Source of the DNA: Candidatus Zixiibacteriota bacterium | GTDB taxonomy: Bacteria; RBG-13-66-14; B26-G2; WVWN01 | NCBI GenBank assembly: GCA_030613505.1 | Contig: JAUWLW010000070.1 | Location: forward strand, 1-10,141 | Direction of reading: 5' to 3' | DNA length: 10,141 bases | In this document: one piece after another, positions 2,399 through 10,141 of the stretch | Layout of the letters: each line of letters opens with the position of its first letter | Numbering within the stretch: position 1 is the stretch's first letter | Program-made: the position numbers and the translations under genes | The notes under the pieces: generated by a model | Seen by the model: the letters and a program-made list of their open reading frames with translations, nothing else | Told to the model about the DNA's origin: nothing | Databases searched by the model: none

Positions 2399-3546
2399 GC
2401 CTCGGCTCCCTTCTTTCGCAGTAGCTCCTCGTACAACCCGGCGTAGCGGTCCGCCATCTTGTCGGCCGTAAAATCGAGCGTGACGCGTGACCGCGCCGCG
2501 CGGCCCATGGCCTTACGCTTACCGGGGTCGCGGGCCAGCACCCGCAACGCCCCGGCCAGCGCGGCGACGTCGCCCACGGGAATCAAGTAACCCGTGCGCC
2601 CCGGTTCTACCAGCTCCGCGTTGCCGCCTACCGCGGTCGCCACCACCGGCAGGGCCGCCGCCATGGCCTCCATAATCGCTATCGACAACCCCTCAGACGG
2701 CGTCGGCAGCACGAACACGTCCGAACCGGCGAGCACCCGCGGGACGTCGTCGCGGAAGCCGAGGAGATGGACGCGGTCGGCGATGCCCAGCTCGGCCGCG
2801 GCCTTACCGATTACCGGGCGACCCCAATGCCCCTCGCCGGCGATCACGAGTATCAGGTCGACGCCGTCGGCGACCAACTCGGCGACGGCCGCCAAGAGGT
2901 CGCCGTGCCCCTTGGAATCGAGCGACGCCACCACCGTCGCGACCACCGTCCAGCGCCGCGCGCCTATCTTACGCCGGAAGGCAAAGCGCTCGCCGCCTGC
3001 CTCGACGAAGGGCGCCGCATCCAGGCCATTCGGTATATGGGTAACTTTGGCCGCCGGTACGCGACACCTGCTTCGGAGTTCATCCGCTATCTCGGCCGAG
3101 ACCCCGACGTGTTTATCGAAAAAGTTCCTCAGGCAAAAACAGTAGAAACGCGCCGCGAGGTCCCGCTTCTCCTGCAGCGTATGGCGGTCGAGGTTTATTT
3201 GGCCGTGCTGCGTGGAAACGGTGACCGCGCCCGCCAGCCGGCCGCCCAGCGCCGCGACGAAGTCGGCCCGTCGCGTATGGGTGTGCACTACGCCGAAACC
3301 CTCCCCCTTAACCAGTTCGGAATAACGACGATAGCTCCGTACGTCGTATTTGTTCTTGACTTCGGCGTCGAAGGTGGGGACGCCGGCGTCCTTAAACCGC
3401 GCCACGTACGGTTGGCTGCTCGGCGCCGCGAGGGCGACGTCGAAGCCGCGCGCCGGCAAGCGCTCGCACAACGCCAACACCGTCGCGAGGTTCCCTCCCC
3501 ACGACGAGTAGTTGTGAACCATTAGGACCTTGGCCCGGGCGACCAC
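2395..3546 (-). CDS. GT4-family glycosyltransferase
   Basis: 383 residues, GT-B fold. Seen: first Rossmann domain beginning AKVLMVHNYSSWGGNL (5-20), with the nucleotide-sugar-donor glycosyltransferase Gly-Gly loop; VVHTHTRRAD (86-95); linker VTHIPNGLD (168-176), the classic start of the C-terminal domain; SLDSKGHGDLL (208-218) with Lys212; VLPTPSEGLSIAIMEAM (279-295), holding the E-x7-E pair Glu285/Glu293; and VATAVGGNAELVEPGRTGYL. Known role of the family: retaining transfer of a sugar from a nucleotide donor to a lipid-linked or oligosaccharide acceptor at the cytoplasmic face. Start: GTG at 3546 retains the whole first beta-strand; ATG at 3522 (residue 9), with AAGG five bases upstream, is a credible alternative. 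It overlaps the dehydrogenase gene by 4 bp, so the two are probably co-transcribed and may act on the same surface polysaccharide. Donor and acceptor cannot be read from the sequence. Confidence 0.93.
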   Translation of the reverse strand: MVARAKVLMVHNYSSWGGNLATVLALCERLPARGFDVALAAPSSQPYVARFKDAGVPTFDAEVKNKYDVRSYRRYSELVKGEGFGVVHTHTRRADFVAALGGRLAGAVTVSTQHGQINLDRHTLQEKRDLAARFYCFCLRNFFDKHVGVSAEIADELRSRCRVPAAKVTHIPNGLDAAPFVEAGGERFAFRRKIGARRWTVVATVVASLDSKGHGDLLAAVAELVADGVDLILVIAGEGHWGRPVIGKAAAELGIADRVHLLGFRDDVPRVLAGSDVFVLPTPSEGLSIAIMEAMAAALPVVATAVGGNAELVEPGRTGYLIPVGDVAALAGALRVLARDPGKRKAMGRAARSRVTLDFTADKMADRYAGLYEELLRKKGAEA

Positions 3547-5343: not shown

Positions 5344-5355
5344 GGGGCCCGCCCC
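5344..5355 (-). terminator. Short GC hairpin at the valS stop codon, possible weak terminator
   Basis: On the minus strand GGGG-CGGG-CCCC begins on the last base of the valS TAG stop and is followed by TTTCC. The stem is only four base pairs and the T-run short, so termination here would be inefficient on its own. It is the only hairpin between valS and the next promoter. Confidence 0.3.
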
Positions 5356-7997
5356 TACTGCAACGCCTTCAGGTTGTCCTCGACGCGCGCCAACGTGGCC
5401 TTGAGGGATTCGAGGCGTTCGGCGTCCGCCGCGACGACGTCCGCCGGCGCCTTCTTGAGAAAGTTCTCGTCACTCAGCTTGAGGCCCAGCGTCGCGACGT
5501 CGCTCTCCAGCTTCTCCTTGGCCCGCTTCAGGCGTTTTACCTCGACGTCGAAATCTATCACGCCTTCCAGCGGGACGAAGACCGTCAATTCGCCCGCCAC
5601 CGCGGCCGCGGCGTGGCCGGGCCGCTTGCCGGCGGCGAGCGGCGCCGCGCTCGCCACGTGCGCCAACGCGAAGAACGGCGCCAGCTCCTCGGCCGCGGCG
5701 GCCGCGACCGCCGCGTCTTCGGAGGAAAGCATCACGTCGACTTCGCTGGACGGCGGGACGTTCATCTCGGCCCGGATATTCCGCACCGCGCGCACGACGT
5801 CGAACAGCAGCTCGAGCCTCGCCTCCGCCTCCTCGTCCACCGCGCCGACGTCGGCCTCGGGCCAGGGCGCCTGCGCGCAAAAACCCCGCCCCGGCGCTAA
5901 CAGGTGGTAAAGTTCCTCCGTAATGTACGGCATCACCGGGTGGAAGAGGCGGAGCAGGACGTCGAATACGTGCCGGGCGACGCGGGCCGCGGCGTCGCCG
6001 GCCGGGCCATGGCCGTACAGGCGCGGCTTTATAGCCTCCAGGTACCAGTCGCAGTACTCTCCCCAGAAGAACTGGTAGAGGGTGTGCACGTAGTCGTTGA
6101 ACCGCATCTCGTCGAACTCCCGCTGGGCCTCGGCGCGCGCCCGGGCGAGGCGCGACAATACCCAACGGTCCACCAGCTTCAGCTCGGCCGCCGCGGGGAG
6201 CGACGCGTCGCCCGACGCCTCGACGTAGGGGAGCAGGAACCGCGCCGCGTTCCATATCTTGTTCGTGAGGTTGCGACCCAGCGCGAACCTCTCCTCCCAC
6301 AGCCGGAAGGACTGCGACTGCGTGCAGAGAGCGGTCAGCGTATATCGCGTCGCGTCGGCGCCGTGGCGGTCGACCAGCGACAACGGGTCCACCCCCGTCC
6401 CCAACGACTTCGACATCCGTTTCCCCTCGGCGGTCTGGATCATGGGGTGGAAGTAGACGGTATGGAAGGGCACGCGTCCGGTGAACCTGAGCCCCGAGAA
6501 GATCATCCGCGCCACCCACAGGAAGATGATATCCGCGGCCGTACAGAGGAGGTCGGTGGGATAGTAAAACTTCATGTCGGCCGTTTCGTCGGGCCAACCC
6601 ATGGTGGAGAAAGGCCAGAGCGCCGAGCTGAACCAGGTGTCGAGAACGTCCTCGTCGCGGCGGAGCTTCGCCGAGCCACAGCCGCACCGCGTCGGCTCCT
6701 CGCGCGCGACTATAATCCCGTCGCAGTCGTCGCAGTACCAGGCCGGGATGCGGTGCCCCCACCACAGCTGCCGCGAGACGCACCAGTCGTGGACGTTGTC
6801 CATCCAATCGTAGTACACCTTGACCCAGCGCTCGGGCACGAATTTAACGTCGCCGCGCGCCACGGCCTCCCGCGCCGGCTTGGCGAGTTCGGCCTGCTTG
6901 ACGAACCACTGCAGCGAGAGGTACGGCTCGACCACCGTCTTGCAGCGATCGCATATCGCCAACGGTACTTTGTAGGGCTTCGTGGTCTCCAGGAGCCCTT
7001 CCACCTGGAGGTCTTTGAGGACCGCCTCGCGGCACTCTTCGCGCGTAAGGCCGCGGTAATTGGCCGGGACCTCGTCCGTCATGCGGCCCCCTTCGTCGAT
7101 GGCCACCACCTTGGGAAGGCCGTGCCGCTGCGCCACGTCGTAGTCGTCGGCGTCGTGGGCGGGCGTTATCTTGACGGCGCCCGTTCCGAACGAGGGGTCG
7201 ACCGCCTCGTCGGCGACGACCGGTATCTCGCGGCCGGTCAGCGGCAACACGACCGCGGCGCCGACCAGGTCCTTGTACCGCACGTCCTTGGGGTTCACCG
7301 CCACCGCGGTATCGCCCAACATGGTCTCGGGCCGGGTGGTGGCGACGACTACGCCCTCGCCGCCCCCCGCGCCGGGGTAGCGGATGTACCACAGCATGCC
7401 GTCCGTCTCCTCGTGGCGAACCTCGAGGTCGGAGAGGGCGGTCCGGCAGCGCGGACACCACGTGACCATGCGTAGGTCCCGGTACAGCAGGCCGTCCTCC
7501 CAATACCGTACGAACGCCTCCACCACCGCCCGCGAGAGCGTGGGGTCCATCGTGAAGCGGAGCCGCGTCCAGTCGCAGCTGCAGCCGAGTCTCTTTAGCT
7601 GGTTGACGATGGTATCGCCGCACTGCTCCTTCCAGGCCCAGGCGCGGCGGAGGAACTCCTCCCGGCCGAGGTCGCGCCGGCCCAACCCCTCCTTGGCAAG
7701 CTCGCGCTCGATGACGGTGTGGGTCGCTATAGACGCGTGGTCGGTCCCCGGCAGCCACAGCGTGTCGAACCCCGCCATCCGCCGTTGGCGCACGACGACG
7801 TCCTGAATGGTGTTGTTGAGGGCGTGGCCCATGTGGAGCGAGCCCGTCACGTTGGGCGGCGGAATCACGACGACGAAGGTCCCGCGCGCCGACGCCGGCT
7901 CGGGCGGCGGCGTGAAGACGCCCGCGGCCTCCCACTCGCGGTACCATCGCGCTTCGAGTTCGGACGCTTCGTATCGGGGGACGAGTTCCTTAGGCAC
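5355..7997 (-). CDS. valS: Valyl-tRNA synthetase
   Basis: 880 residues, the usual length for bacterial class Ia ValRS; it charges tRNA-Val with valine in the cytoplasm. Seen: IPPPNVTGSLHMGHALNNTI with the HIGH motif as HMGH (55-58); WCPRCRTALSDLEV (180-193); the CP1 editing-domain motif TTRPETMLGD (220-229) and later FGTGAVKITPAHDADDYDV; CVSRQLWWGHRIPAW followed by a CxxC...CxC zinc-like cluster; DTWFSSALWPFSTMGWP; KMSKS as RMSKS (527-531, GKRMSKSLGTGVDP), a conservative Lys-to-Arg change; the anticodon-binding domain; and a C-terminal coiled-coil arm of about 65 residues (EVKRLKRAKEKLESDVATL), typical of ValRS. Start: GTG at 7997-7995, preceded at 5 nt by GAGGTGA, a seven-base match to the anti-Shine-Dalgarno complement. 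A GTG at 8006 lies inside that site and would add three residues. It is preceded by what appears to be a valine-specific attenuator (8076-8192) and has its own promoter. Confidence 0.98.
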   Translation of the reverse strand: MPKELVPRYEASELEARWYREWEAAGVFTPPPEPASARGTFVVVIPPPNVTGSLHMGHALNNTIQDVVVRQRRMAGFDTLWLPGTDHASIATHTVIERELAKEGLGRRDLGREEFLRRAWAWKEQCGDTIVNQLKRLGCSCDWTRLRFTMDPTLSRAVVEAFVRYWEDGLLYRDLRMVTWCPRCRTALSDLEVRHEETDGMLWYIRYPGAGGGEGVVVATTRPETMLGDTAVAVNPKDVRYKDLVGAAVVLPLTGREIPVVADEAVDPSFGTGAVKITPAHDADDYDVAQRHGLPKVVAIDEGGRMTDEVPANYRGLTREECREAVLKDLQVEGLLETTKPYKVPLAICDRCKTVVEPYLSLQWFVKQAELAKPAREAVARGDVKFVPERWVKVYYDWMDNVHDWCVSRQLWWGHRIPAWYCDDCDGIIVAREEPTRCGCGSAKLRRDEDVLDTWFSSALWPFSTMGWPDETADMKFYYPTDLLCTAADIIFLWVARMIFSGLRFTGRVPFHTVYFHPMIQTAEGKRMSKSLGTGVDPLSLVDRHGADATRYTLTALCTQSQSFRLWEERFALGRNLTNKIWNAARFLLPYVEASGDASLPAAAELKLVDRWVLSRLARARAEAQREFDEMRFNDYVHTLYQFFWGEYCDWYLEAIKPRLYGHGPAGDAAARVARHVFDVLLRLFHPVMPYITEELYHLLAPGRGFCAQAPWPEADVGAVDEEAEARLELLFDVVRAVRNIRAEMNVPPSSEVDVMLSSEDAAVAAAAAEELAPFFALAHVASAAPLAAGKRPGHAAAAVAGELTVFVPLEGVIDFDVEVKRLKRAKEKLESDVATLGLKLSDENFLKKAPADVVAADAERLESLKATLARVEDNLKALQ

Positions 7998-8075
7998 AAC
8001 GTTCACCTCGTTCTCGAAAGCGGCGTTAACCCTTCGGCACGCTTATCGGCTTTAGCGGAGCCACGTCGGAACGTC

Positions 8076-8104
8076 AATAAGAAAGCCGGCTCTTGGGCCG
8101 GCCC
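8076..8104 (-). terminator. Intrinsic terminator in the valS leader (attenuator, arms 3:4)
   Basis: On the minus strand GCCGGC (8102-8097), loop CCAAGA, GCCGGC (8090-8085), then TTTCTTATT. Two extra G-U pairs (8103/8084 and 8104/8083) can lengthen the six GC pairs to eight. It lies between the leader-peptide stop and the valS start, so transcripts from the promoter at 8217-8244 must pass it to reach valS. Its 5' arm is shared with the antiterminator, the expected geometry for attenuation. Confidence 0.8.
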
Positions 8105-8152
8105 GCTGGAGCGTAACGAACGTACGTCACCGAGGGCGGGCCGGCGCCCCGC
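8097..8152 (-). promoter_or_regulatory. Antiterminator (2:3) and anti-antiterminator (1:2) of the valS attenuator
   Basis: Minus-strand arm 2, GCCGGCCCGC (8145-8136), is the exact reverse complement of arm 3, GCGGGCCGGC (8106-8097): ten uninterrupted GC pairs. Pairing 2:3 consumes the 5' half of the terminator hairpin. Arm 1, GCGGG (8152-8148), directly after the valine codons, can instead pair with the CCCGC of arm 2 (8140-8136). Inferred mechanism: a ribosome stalled at uncharged-tRNA valine codons covers arm 1, frees arm 2, 2:3 forms and transcription continues into valS. A ribosome that reaches the leader stop, eight bases after arm 2, covers arm 2 and lets the terminator form. The base pairing is seen; the mechanism is inferred by analogy with amino-acid operon attenuators. 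Confidence 0.78.
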
Positions 8153-8192
8153 TTACAACTACGACTACCGCTACTTTTAGTACTTCCGGCAT
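8127..8192 (-). CDS. Valine-rich leader peptide of valS
   Basis: A 21-codon reading frame, ATG at 8192-8190 and TGA at 8129-8127, starting about 17 nt after the predicted transcription start; an AAGGG stretch upstream can serve as ribosome binding site. It begins MPEVLKVA, continues with five consecutive valines (residues 9-13, codons GTA GTC GTA GTT GTA), then SGAPARPR. Seven of 21 residues are Val (4, 7, 9-13). Such a run just ahead of mutually exclusive hairpins and upstream of the valine-tRNA synthetase gene is the hallmark of a regulatory leader peptide, as in the ilv, leu and pheST attenuators. The peptide probably has no function beyond letting the ribosome sense charged tRNA-Val. I do not know a standard gene name for it. 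Confidence 0.82.
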   Translation of the reverse strand: MPEVLKVAVVVVVSGAPARPR

Positions 8193-8216
8193 CGCTCTCG
8201 GCCCTTCTTAGCCGAA

Positions 8217-8244
8217 ATTATATACGAAAAACATAAAAAGTCAA
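8217..8244 (-). promoter_or_regulatory. Strong sigma-70-type promoter for the valS leader
   Basis: On the minus strand TTGACT (8244-8239) and a perfect TATAAT (8222-8217) are 16 bases apart, in a T-rich stretch of an otherwise GC-rich sequence. Predicted transcription start is near 8209, giving a leader RNA of about 210 nt before the valS GTG. The start lies 17 nt before the leader-peptide ATG, which makes promoter, peptide and attenuator one coherent unit. The stretch 8245-8274, between this promoter and the stop of the upstream gene, shows no convincing terminator. Confidence 0.87.
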
Positions 8245-8274
8245 GGATGATTATTTGCTTTTGCCGCCGCCGAT

Positions 8275-10141
8275 TTAGTTGACGTAACCCAACGCCCGCA
8301 GCGACTTCTCGAGGCGCGGCGGAACGTGCCCGCGGGAGGGGGTGAGCGCCCGCGCCCGGGCTTCGGCCTTGAGAAGCCCCGTCATGTCGCGCCGCTCCGC
8401 CAGCGGCGCGTCGACGCCCCCCGGCTCGCCCACCAGGTTATCGAGCTGGAGCGGGTCCGACTCGCGGTAATAAAAGTACTCGCGCCCCGTATTATCATCT
8501 TTGAGGTAATAATAACCGCCCGCCACCAACGCGTCCAGCTCGATGCTGCGCTGCGGCGGCTCGAGGTCGGGAACGTAAAAATCCTGTATCCCCTCCAAAA
8601 GGAGGTCCCTGGGCGGGACGGGCCGGTCGCCGGCCATATGCGGCTTTAAATCCAACCCCTCCCACTCCGCCGGAATAGTGCCGCCCACCAACGAGACCAG
8701 CGTCGGCGCGAGGTCCGTCAGCGTTACCGGCCCGTCGACCACCGCGGCCGGGTAGCCCGGCGCCTTAAACATCAGCGGGATCTCGGCCACCTCGCGGTGC
8801 AAGCTGGCGCCGTGGAGCCAGCGGCCGTGCTCCAGGAACTCCTCGCCGTGGTCCGCCACGATTATTATAATCGGCTCGATTTCTTCGCCGAAGGCGGGAA
8901 TGACTTTTTCGAGCACGTCCTTGATTACGACGTCCATCCGCCGGATATCCGCGTCGTACAGCGCCTTCGCCAACGCGATCTCGTCGTCGTCGTAATCGGG
9001 CAGGAAAGTGGGGTCCCTAATGAGGTCCTGGAAGAAATATCTACCCTCGGCGAGCTCGCGCGCCCGGGCCGGTTTGACGCGGTCCAGGAAGGGCTTCAAT
9101 TCCGCCATATACTCCGGCCTCGGCGGATTGGGCGTGTGGGGCTCCCAATAATGCACGTAGACGAACCGGGCGGGCCCCCGCGTAAAACGCATCCAGAGCT
9201 CGAGCCTTCGGTTCAAATCCATGCCGTCGCGGGTAGGCCGCCATAAAGAGCCGAAGATACCCGGCGACTTGTTGTACTTCGTCAAAACACGCGCCACGGA
9301 CGTCGGCGGCCCCGCGGCCTCCAGGATGCTCCCGCCGCAGGCGTTGTCCATCACGTCGAAGCCGTCGCCCATACCGGCCAGTCGGTTTATGTTGGGGTTC
9401 GCCGATATCGCCAGCGTGCGGTACCCCACCTTCCGCAAGTACTCCGTGAGCGTCAACGCGTCCTCGGGCAACCCGGTAAAACGCGCCGTGACGCCGTGGG
9501 TGCCGGGCAGCGTTGAGGTAAGGGCCGTCGCGATGGCGGGCTTGGTCCAAGACGAGACGGTATACGCTTCTCGAAAGAGGACGCTCTCGCCGGCGAAAGC
9601 TTCGATTGTAGGCGCCAGCCGACGCGTCGCGCCGTACGGCTGGAGGCGGTCCGCCCGGAACGCGTCCATCACCAAGAAGAATACGTCCGGCTTATGGGGC
9701 CTGGGCTTTTGCGCCTGCCAAAGGCCGGCAAGCTCGACGGCCACGAACGGGAGGAGTAAGGCCAGCGCGAACACGCGTAGGGCTACGACGGCGGCCGACG
9801 ACCTCGCCCCCGCGGGCCGGGGCGCCTTCTGTAGGAGCCGGTATATCCCGGCGGCGAGGCCGACCCAAACTACCGCGGCCCCGACGAATACCGCCGCGAT
9901 AATCAGTAACGTTGAAAAGCCCGAGCCGTGGAAAGCGGTGTGGTCGACCGTGGCCCAGAAGCGCGCCGCGCCCGCGCCGCCCAACGCGGCCATAAGCACG
10001 AAAAGCGCGGGCGACGCCAACCGGACCGTCCCCCGCCGCGACGCCCACCAAAAATACGCCGTAGCGGCCACCGCGAAGAAGGCCGTCGCCAAAAGCGCCA
10101 ACCACAAGGCTTCGACGCCGAATAATATTTGAAAAAAATAC
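8275..10141 (-). CDS. Membrane-bound sulfatase/phosphatase-superfamily protein, probably 5'-partial at window edge
   Basis: Numbered from a TTG at 10107 (610 residues). That TTG has no ribosome binding site, and the frame stays open through hydrophobic codons (FFQILFGVEA) to the edge, so the true start probably lies outside the window. Seen: about four membrane helices (near 2-21, 32-52, 64-88 and 106-130), then an alkaline-phosphatase-fold domain: DVFFLVMDAFRADRLQPYGA (141-160) with metal-ligand Asp148; SSWTKPAIATALTS (185-198); HYWEPHTPNPP (319-329); IIIVADHGEEFLEHGRWLHG (414-433) with Asp419, His420, His427 and His432. The CxPSR of true sulfatases is replaced by TKPAIA with Thr188 at the nucleophile position, so formylglycine cannot form. 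Thr is the nucleophile in phosphoglycerol and phosphoethanolamine transferases, so a phospho-group hydrolase or transferase on a lipid or glycan is more likely than a sulfatase. The catalytic domain probably faces the periplasm. The substrate is unknown. Confidence 0.88.
   Translation of the reverse strand, partial: YFFQILFGVEALWLALLATAFFAVAATAYFWWASRRGTVRLASPALFVLMAALGGAGAARFWATVDHTAFHGSGFSTLLIIAAVFVGAAVVWVGLAAGIYRLLQKAPRPAGARSSAAVVALRVFALALLLPFVAVELAGLWQAQKPRPHKPDVFFLVMDAFRADRLQPYGATRRLAPTIEAFAGESVLFREAYTVSSWTKPAIATALTSTLPGTHGVTARFTGLPEDALTLTEYLRKVGYRTLAISANPNINRLAGMGDGFDVMDNACGGSILEAAGPPTSVARVLTKYNKSPGIFGSLWRPTRDGMDLNRRLELWMRFTRGPARFVYVHYWEPHTPNPPRPEYMAELKPFLDRVKPARARELAEGRYFFQDLIRDPTFLPDYDDDEIALAKALYDADIRRMDVVIKDVLEKVIPAFGEEIEPIIIIVADHGEEFLEHGRWLHGASLHREVAEIPLMFKAPGYPAAVVDGPVTLTDLAPTLVSLVGGTIPAEWEGLDLKPHMAGDRPVPPRDLLLEGIQDFYVPDLEPPQRSIELDALVAGGYYYLKDDNTGREYFYYRESDPLQLDNLVGEPGGVDAPLAERRDMTGLLKAEARARALTPSRGHVPPRLEKSLRALGYVN

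Follow-up and report, generated by a model that had tools for sequence, protein, structure and literature searches.

The window, the whole stretch of DNA analysed here, spans 10,141 nt of contig JAUWLW010000070.1 from a Candidatus Zixiibacteriota bacterium with a 2.86 Mb genome that is 93% complete (G000). It carries valS, coding for valyl-tRNA synthetase, on the minus strand. This assignment, already made in the first-pass annotation of this DNA, is borne out by the NCBIfam models PRK05729 and TIGR00422, both above cut-off. The listed valS frame starts at GTG 8006, but GTG 7997, located behind the Shine-Dalgarno sequence GAGGTGA, is likelier and is probably the true start. A sulfatase-like gene lies upstream on the same strand, its stop at 8275 being about 30 nt before the -35 box of the promoter listed below. 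The features relevant for the following are, in the direction of transcription:

8217-8244, minus strand: sigma-70-type promoter, TTGACT-16 nt-TATAAT, recognised by consensus only and aligned in relatives
8127-8192, minus strand: valine leader peptide of 21 codons, MPEVLKVAVVVVVSGAPARPR and a stop codon, with counterparts in all four relatives from the order
8154-8168, minus strand: control codons GTA GTC GTA GTT GTA (Val9-13), as read in the sequence
8136-8145, minus strand: predicted antiterminator arm A, GCCGGCCCGC, within leader codons 16-19, forming 10 bp with arm B
8097-8106, minus strand: predicted antiterminator arm B, GCGGGCCGGC, which holds the terminator 5' arm (8102-8097)
8076-8102, minus strand: intrinsic terminator GCCGGC-CCAAGA-GCCGGC with the T-rich tail TTTCTTATT, between the leader frame and valS
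8003-8009, minus strand: valS Shine-Dalgarno sequence GAGGTGA, conserved in relatives
5355-7997, minus strand: valS

The leader frame extends from ATG at 8192 to TGA at 8129-8127. Seven of its 21 codons specify valine and five of these are consecutive (codons 9-13), just as the first-pass annotation had described; it is the minus strand that carries this frame. The promoter (-35 box at 8244-8239, -10 box at 8222-8217) matches the consensus at 11 of 12 positions with a 16-nt spacer, and a promoter search of the region returned 2 sites versus a mean of 0.2 in shuffled sequences. The earlier figure of about 17 nt between promoter and leader is true if counted from the expected start site (17-18 nt), the distance from the -10 box to the ATG being 24 nt. 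The hairpin reported shortly after the frame is also there: its stem (8102-8097 / 8090-8085) begins 24 nt past the leader stop codon, which is itself about 130 nt away from the valS start. The Shine-Dalgarno sequence of the leader is weak (AGAAGG about 11 nt 5' of the ATG, with no strong site at the ideal distance). The valine run had been called very unlikely to arise by chance, and indeed, when 8215-8061 was shuffled 20,000 times with dinucleotides preserved, no short frame with a Val5 run arose, while 56 of the shuffled sequences contained a five-residue run of any kind.

Arms A and B are fully complementary across 10 bp (predicted dG -29.3 kcal/mol, p = 0.008 versus shuffles). Arm B is common to the antiterminator and terminator helices, and the two predicted structures are mutually exclusive. 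For each ribosome position we folded only the RNA downstream of the ribosome, at equilibrium and neglecting kinetics and pausing. The terminator is predicted with a probability of 0.00-0.02 while one of the codons Val9-13 occupies the A site, of 0.72 for Ser14 and of 0.95-0.98 for all positions from Gly15 onwards, with 0.98 at the stop codon. Since the probability jumps past Val13, the modelled switch point coincides with the end of the valine run. The result is robust: an assumed ribosome footprint three bases larger or smaller displaces the switch by roughly one codon. When the leader of the window is folded with no ribosome, read-through is predicted, in which it differs from trpL.

The arrangement was compared with that in three congeners and one relative of another family from the same order, giving a conservation set of five genomes (G000-G004), four of them in one genus. 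A Val-run leader accompanied by a promoter-like sequence and a terminator is located before valS or its operon in 5/5 genomes. The leaders are VEIIKVAVVVVVRGAPARPW in G001, where a GTG start is required, MIRSQEVVVVVVVRGARARPR in G002, where no obvious Shine-Dalgarno sequence is seen, MIETASVVVVVVDGASARPR in G003 and MSHDVKKVVVDVVVKGPPVATR in G004, the valS of which is just 64% identical. The first-pass annotation had named loss of the short frame or of its valine codons in relatives as evidence against its reading; both are kept in all five genomes. The codons vary synonymously among the species while the peptide remains Val-rich. The folding model gives the same switch for the G002, G003 and G004 leaders; in G001 it is found only for the last three of the five Val codons (from the third onward).

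In single genomes the pairing of the arms exceeds that of shuffles only moderately (p = 0.005-0.07), as the antiterminator arm is G+C-rich; in four genomes, 1-18% of shuffled arms were about as effective in abolishing the terminator. In the alignment A2 of the five species, the predicted antiterminator is paired in 89.6% of its cells and three of its pairs have changed on both sides; if one strand is shifted by one base, pairing falls to below 47%. All six terminator pairs form in all five genomes. One nucleotide of arm B, column 171, has column 133 as its antiterminator partner and column 188 as its terminator partner. All three columns have changed jointly in G004 (C/G/C to U/A/U), so that both rival helices are preserved. 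It is difficult to account for such a triple change unless selection acts on both helices. The set is a small one: five sequences, of which four belong to one genus.

The surroundings of the attenuator differ between the genomes. In G004 the gene upstream of it is another one, yet the whole arrangement is retained; the attenuator is therefore separable from the terminator of the upstream gene. G002 and G003 have an inserted gene, GNAT-like as judged by eye from its sequence, that parts the attenuator from valS. The leader is thus more than 1.2 kb 5' of valS, yet it heads the transcription unit, and the attenuator remains beside the operon promoter. This GNAT-like acetyltransferase gene, located between the Val leader and valS at L004 (G003) and L005 (G002), should be co-regulated with valS, as it lies downstream of the attenuator.

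Taken together, the anatomy of the locus, its relatives and the folding model make it highly probable that valS is controlled by a ribosome-mediated transcription attenuator sensing charged tRNA-Val, and they support the leader-peptide attenuation proposed in the first-pass annotation. From these data we infer the following course of transcription start, leader translation, ribosome stalling and effect on valS. RNA polymerase would start about 18 nt 5' of the leader, with a ribosome trailing it on the leader frame. With ample Val-tRNA the ribosome would clear the valine run, reach the stop codon and cover arm A; arm B would then pair with its downstream arm, the terminator would form and transcription would stop before valS. 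If Val-tRNA is short, the ribosome would stall on the Val codons, mostly rare GTA, leaving arm A free to capture arm B; no terminator would form and valS would be transcribed. Attenuation of this kind at a synthetase gene would raise the level of the tRNA-charging enzyme exactly when the cognate charged tRNA is short.

The codons used are peculiar. In the valS leaders of the five genomes GTA accounts for 23 of the 34 Val codons, versus 25/237 in a reference set made up of five genes of the window rather than the whole genome (p = 2e-12), and CTA for 10 of the 26 Leu codons in the leuS leaders considered below versus 7/263 (p = 7e-8). Rare control codons suit sensitive attenuation.

Similar leaders precede two more synthetase genes in the same order. 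Ile-run leaders were found before ileS in 4/4 readable genomes (MTYPKLASAIIIIIDLPRSGRLRMP, MYSRQPANAIIIIIDLPRSGRLRMP, MNHHEPASIIIIIIDLPGSGRLSMP and MNTFVIIIGNT), the ileS upstream region of G002 being left out for a run of N, and Leu-run leaders before leuS in 5/5 genomes (MYLKNSRQLALLLREA, MYLKSSRQLVLLLREA, MLKGCRQLALLLLQEA, MRNEGCRQLALLLEEA and MTVTGLNIGLLVLLLPDR). Each of these leaders comes with a terminator behind it and usually also with an arm complementary to the 5' side of that terminator. Across 56 upstream regions scored in one uniform matrix, a run of the cognate residue before a terminator was present for valS in 5/5, ileS in 4/4 and leuS in 5/5 cases, and in 0/42 upstream regions of thrS, serS, proS, hisS, pheS, tyrS, trpS, alaS and metG. 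No cognate leader was found in the upstream regions of aspS, lysS and asnS either. For the leuS leaders of G002 and G004 the equilibrium model favours the terminator at every ribosome position. The antiterminator, the ileS and leuS leaders and the operon variant with the GNAT-like gene were all absent from the first-pass annotation.

Two side observations concern these upstream regions. In G004 (L225, about 2720-3310) an opposite-strand frame separates the Leu leader and its terminator from leuS, which is about 650 nt further downstream; this is an unusual interruption of the leader transcript and a caveat to the leuS series. Directly upstream of tyrS in G000-G004 (L164-L168), between the preceding gene and tyrS, there is a hairpin GGCATAGG...CCTATGCC followed by TTTTTTAT, which is kept in 5/5 genomes and varies slightly in G004. 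It is probably a terminator, though an unusually well conserved one.

Branched-chain amino acid synthesis was considered as well. ilvC is present in four of the five genomes; it has no leader in the 1.5 kb read upstream and is preceded by another gene on the same strand. Acetolactate synthase (TIGR00118) scored under cut-off in all five genomes, which would fit branched-chain auxotrophy, but this idea was dropped in view of ilvC.

Several other readings of the valS leader have to be weighed. The leader could act via translation or reinitiation, coupled to valS, and not via transcription termination. Leader frames are able to boost downstream translation by reinitiation (PMC4833913), and the sequence alone is also compatible with a Rho-dependent or translational variant. 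valS, however, starts far downstream of the leader stop codon behind a strong Shine-Dalgarno sequence of its own, in G002 and G003 a whole gene intervenes, and the T-tailed terminator is retained in all five genomes, so we regard a translational mechanism as improbable.

It is still less probable that the hairpin simply terminates transcription of the sulfatase-like gene and that the frame with the Val run is due to chance or low complexity. As an intrinsic terminator the hairpin is a good one, and the sulfatase-like gene does end close by on the same strand, but a near-consensus promoter lies between the two. The arrangement remains intact behind a different gene in G004, synonymous changes of the Val codons leave the peptide Val-rich, Ile and Leu runs sit exactly before ileS and leuS, and the shuffles yielded no Val5 frame.

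A functional small peptide with a role of its own could be suspected from the similarity of the C-terminal part between species (GAPARPR / GARARPR / GPPVATR). Since this part reflects the coding content of arm A, its conservation is accounted for by the RNA pairing; the N-terminal residues, in turn, vary freely, which makes a role for the peptide itself very hard to credit.

In other bacteria, valS is known to be among the genes under T-box control. PMC2494555, which deals with T-box-regulated genes, mentions valS, but control of the present valS by a T-box or another riboswitch, with the Val frame being incidental, has next to no probability: at gathering score no Rfam family (T-box and amino-acid leader families included) matched the window and only a 5S rRNA was found in eight related loci, a permissive scan of 7980-8280 gave chance-level matches with no T-box among them, and the approximately 130 nt from the start site to the terminator are occupied by the leader frame and arms A and B.

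With attenuation by the leader peptide as the preferred reading, we looked at valS outside the order. The sample comprised 107 valS upstream regions from many phyla and 28 relatives of one of these genomes, G020 (about 135 in total). G020 alone outside the order passed the Val filter among the 107 regions, with MILQNTIVVVVLSD and a terminator. Among its 28 relatives a Val-rich leader with a terminator was found in G061 only, a member of the same family with valS 73% identical (MSPIGSVSVGKVAVVVPPM). For neither leader did the folding model give an equilibrium switch, and the pairing of their putative antiterminator arms lacks significance (p = 0.06 and 0.30). These weaker Val leaders at valS in a second, unrelated family therefore do no more than hint at a second origin.

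Among relatives from the same class or phylum outside the order, no Val leader was found at valS of G005, G006, G007 and G009, the four genomes in which the sequence ahead of valS was readable, and no leader at ileS of the same four genomes or at leuS of G005, G007 and G009; G012, in which the contigs end at these genes, was left out of the ileS and leuS comparison. G007 and G009 (L009 and L010; family f5) share a different 5' element within about 250 nt upstream of valS, consisting of a promoter-like TTGACA..TAAACTT along with hairpins rich in G+C and a short frame starting with MPRTV. It has no Val run and no Rfam match at gathering score, and may represent another type of valS control.

Overall, we lean towards a broader view, held with less assurance than the attenuator itself, that among the 15 synthetase genes examined valS, ileS and leuS alone form a coordinated regulon with cognate attenuators in two families, that at least one further lineage (G020/G061) acquired valS leader attenuators independently, and that these systems belong to an overlooked general class of synthetase control distinct from the T-box.

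The first-pass annotation knew of no described leader peptide for valS, and none was found in the open-access literature, which was the scope of our search. The Val/valS pair thus appears new as a combination of amino acid and gene, as far as could be checked. Since leader attenuators of pheST, leuS, trpS and hisS are known, the system is of a known kind and valS is a further case of it. The pheST operon of gamma-proteobacteria, given in PMC1262725 as a known case of a classical ribosome-mediated attenuator, is likewise a synthetase operon preceded by a leader peptide in which the cognate residue is abundant; it differs in the amino acid and gene (Phe/pheST) and in the phylum, and the likeness is one of description.

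Candidate attenuators were proposed for leuS and trpS of Streptomyces (Seliverstov et al., 2005, PMC1262725), and leaders were reported for leuS, trpS, alaS and thrS of S. lividans (PMC8079986). These are likewise cognate leader peptides of synthetase genes and share leuS with the order studied here, but there is no valS or ileS leader among those given. Streptomyces leuL2 is located on a leaderless transcript and has three Leu, whereas in our order the leaders extend to the Val, Ile and Leu synthetases alike and have runs of 3-7 residues. ileS leaders are not unprecedented, as a short leader frame of ileS, along with one of trpS, is mentioned in Caulobacter crescentus (PMC4117421); the passages concerned give neither composition nor mechanism.

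In bacilli, hisS paralogs were described in which the T-box is replaced by a His leader peptide (Naville and Gautheret, 2010, PMC2965389). This is also a synthetase leader peptide outside Proteobacteria and Actinobacteria, but the residue is histidine, and valS is absent from the main text of that paper. The leaders of ilv/leu operons, such as ilvL, ilvBN and the S. aureus ilvD leader (PMC5794164), have branched-chain control codons and alternative terminator and antiterminator structures in common with the leaders described here. They control biosynthesis, whereas in our order it is the synthetase genes that carry the leaders and ilvC has none upstream. The valS attenuator is recognisable from sequence alone and can serve as a template for general scans of valS upstream regions. 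The occurrence of all three systems, Val, Ile and Leu, in an uncultured phylum suggests that control of this kind extends well beyond Proteobacteria, Actinobacteria and Firmicutes.
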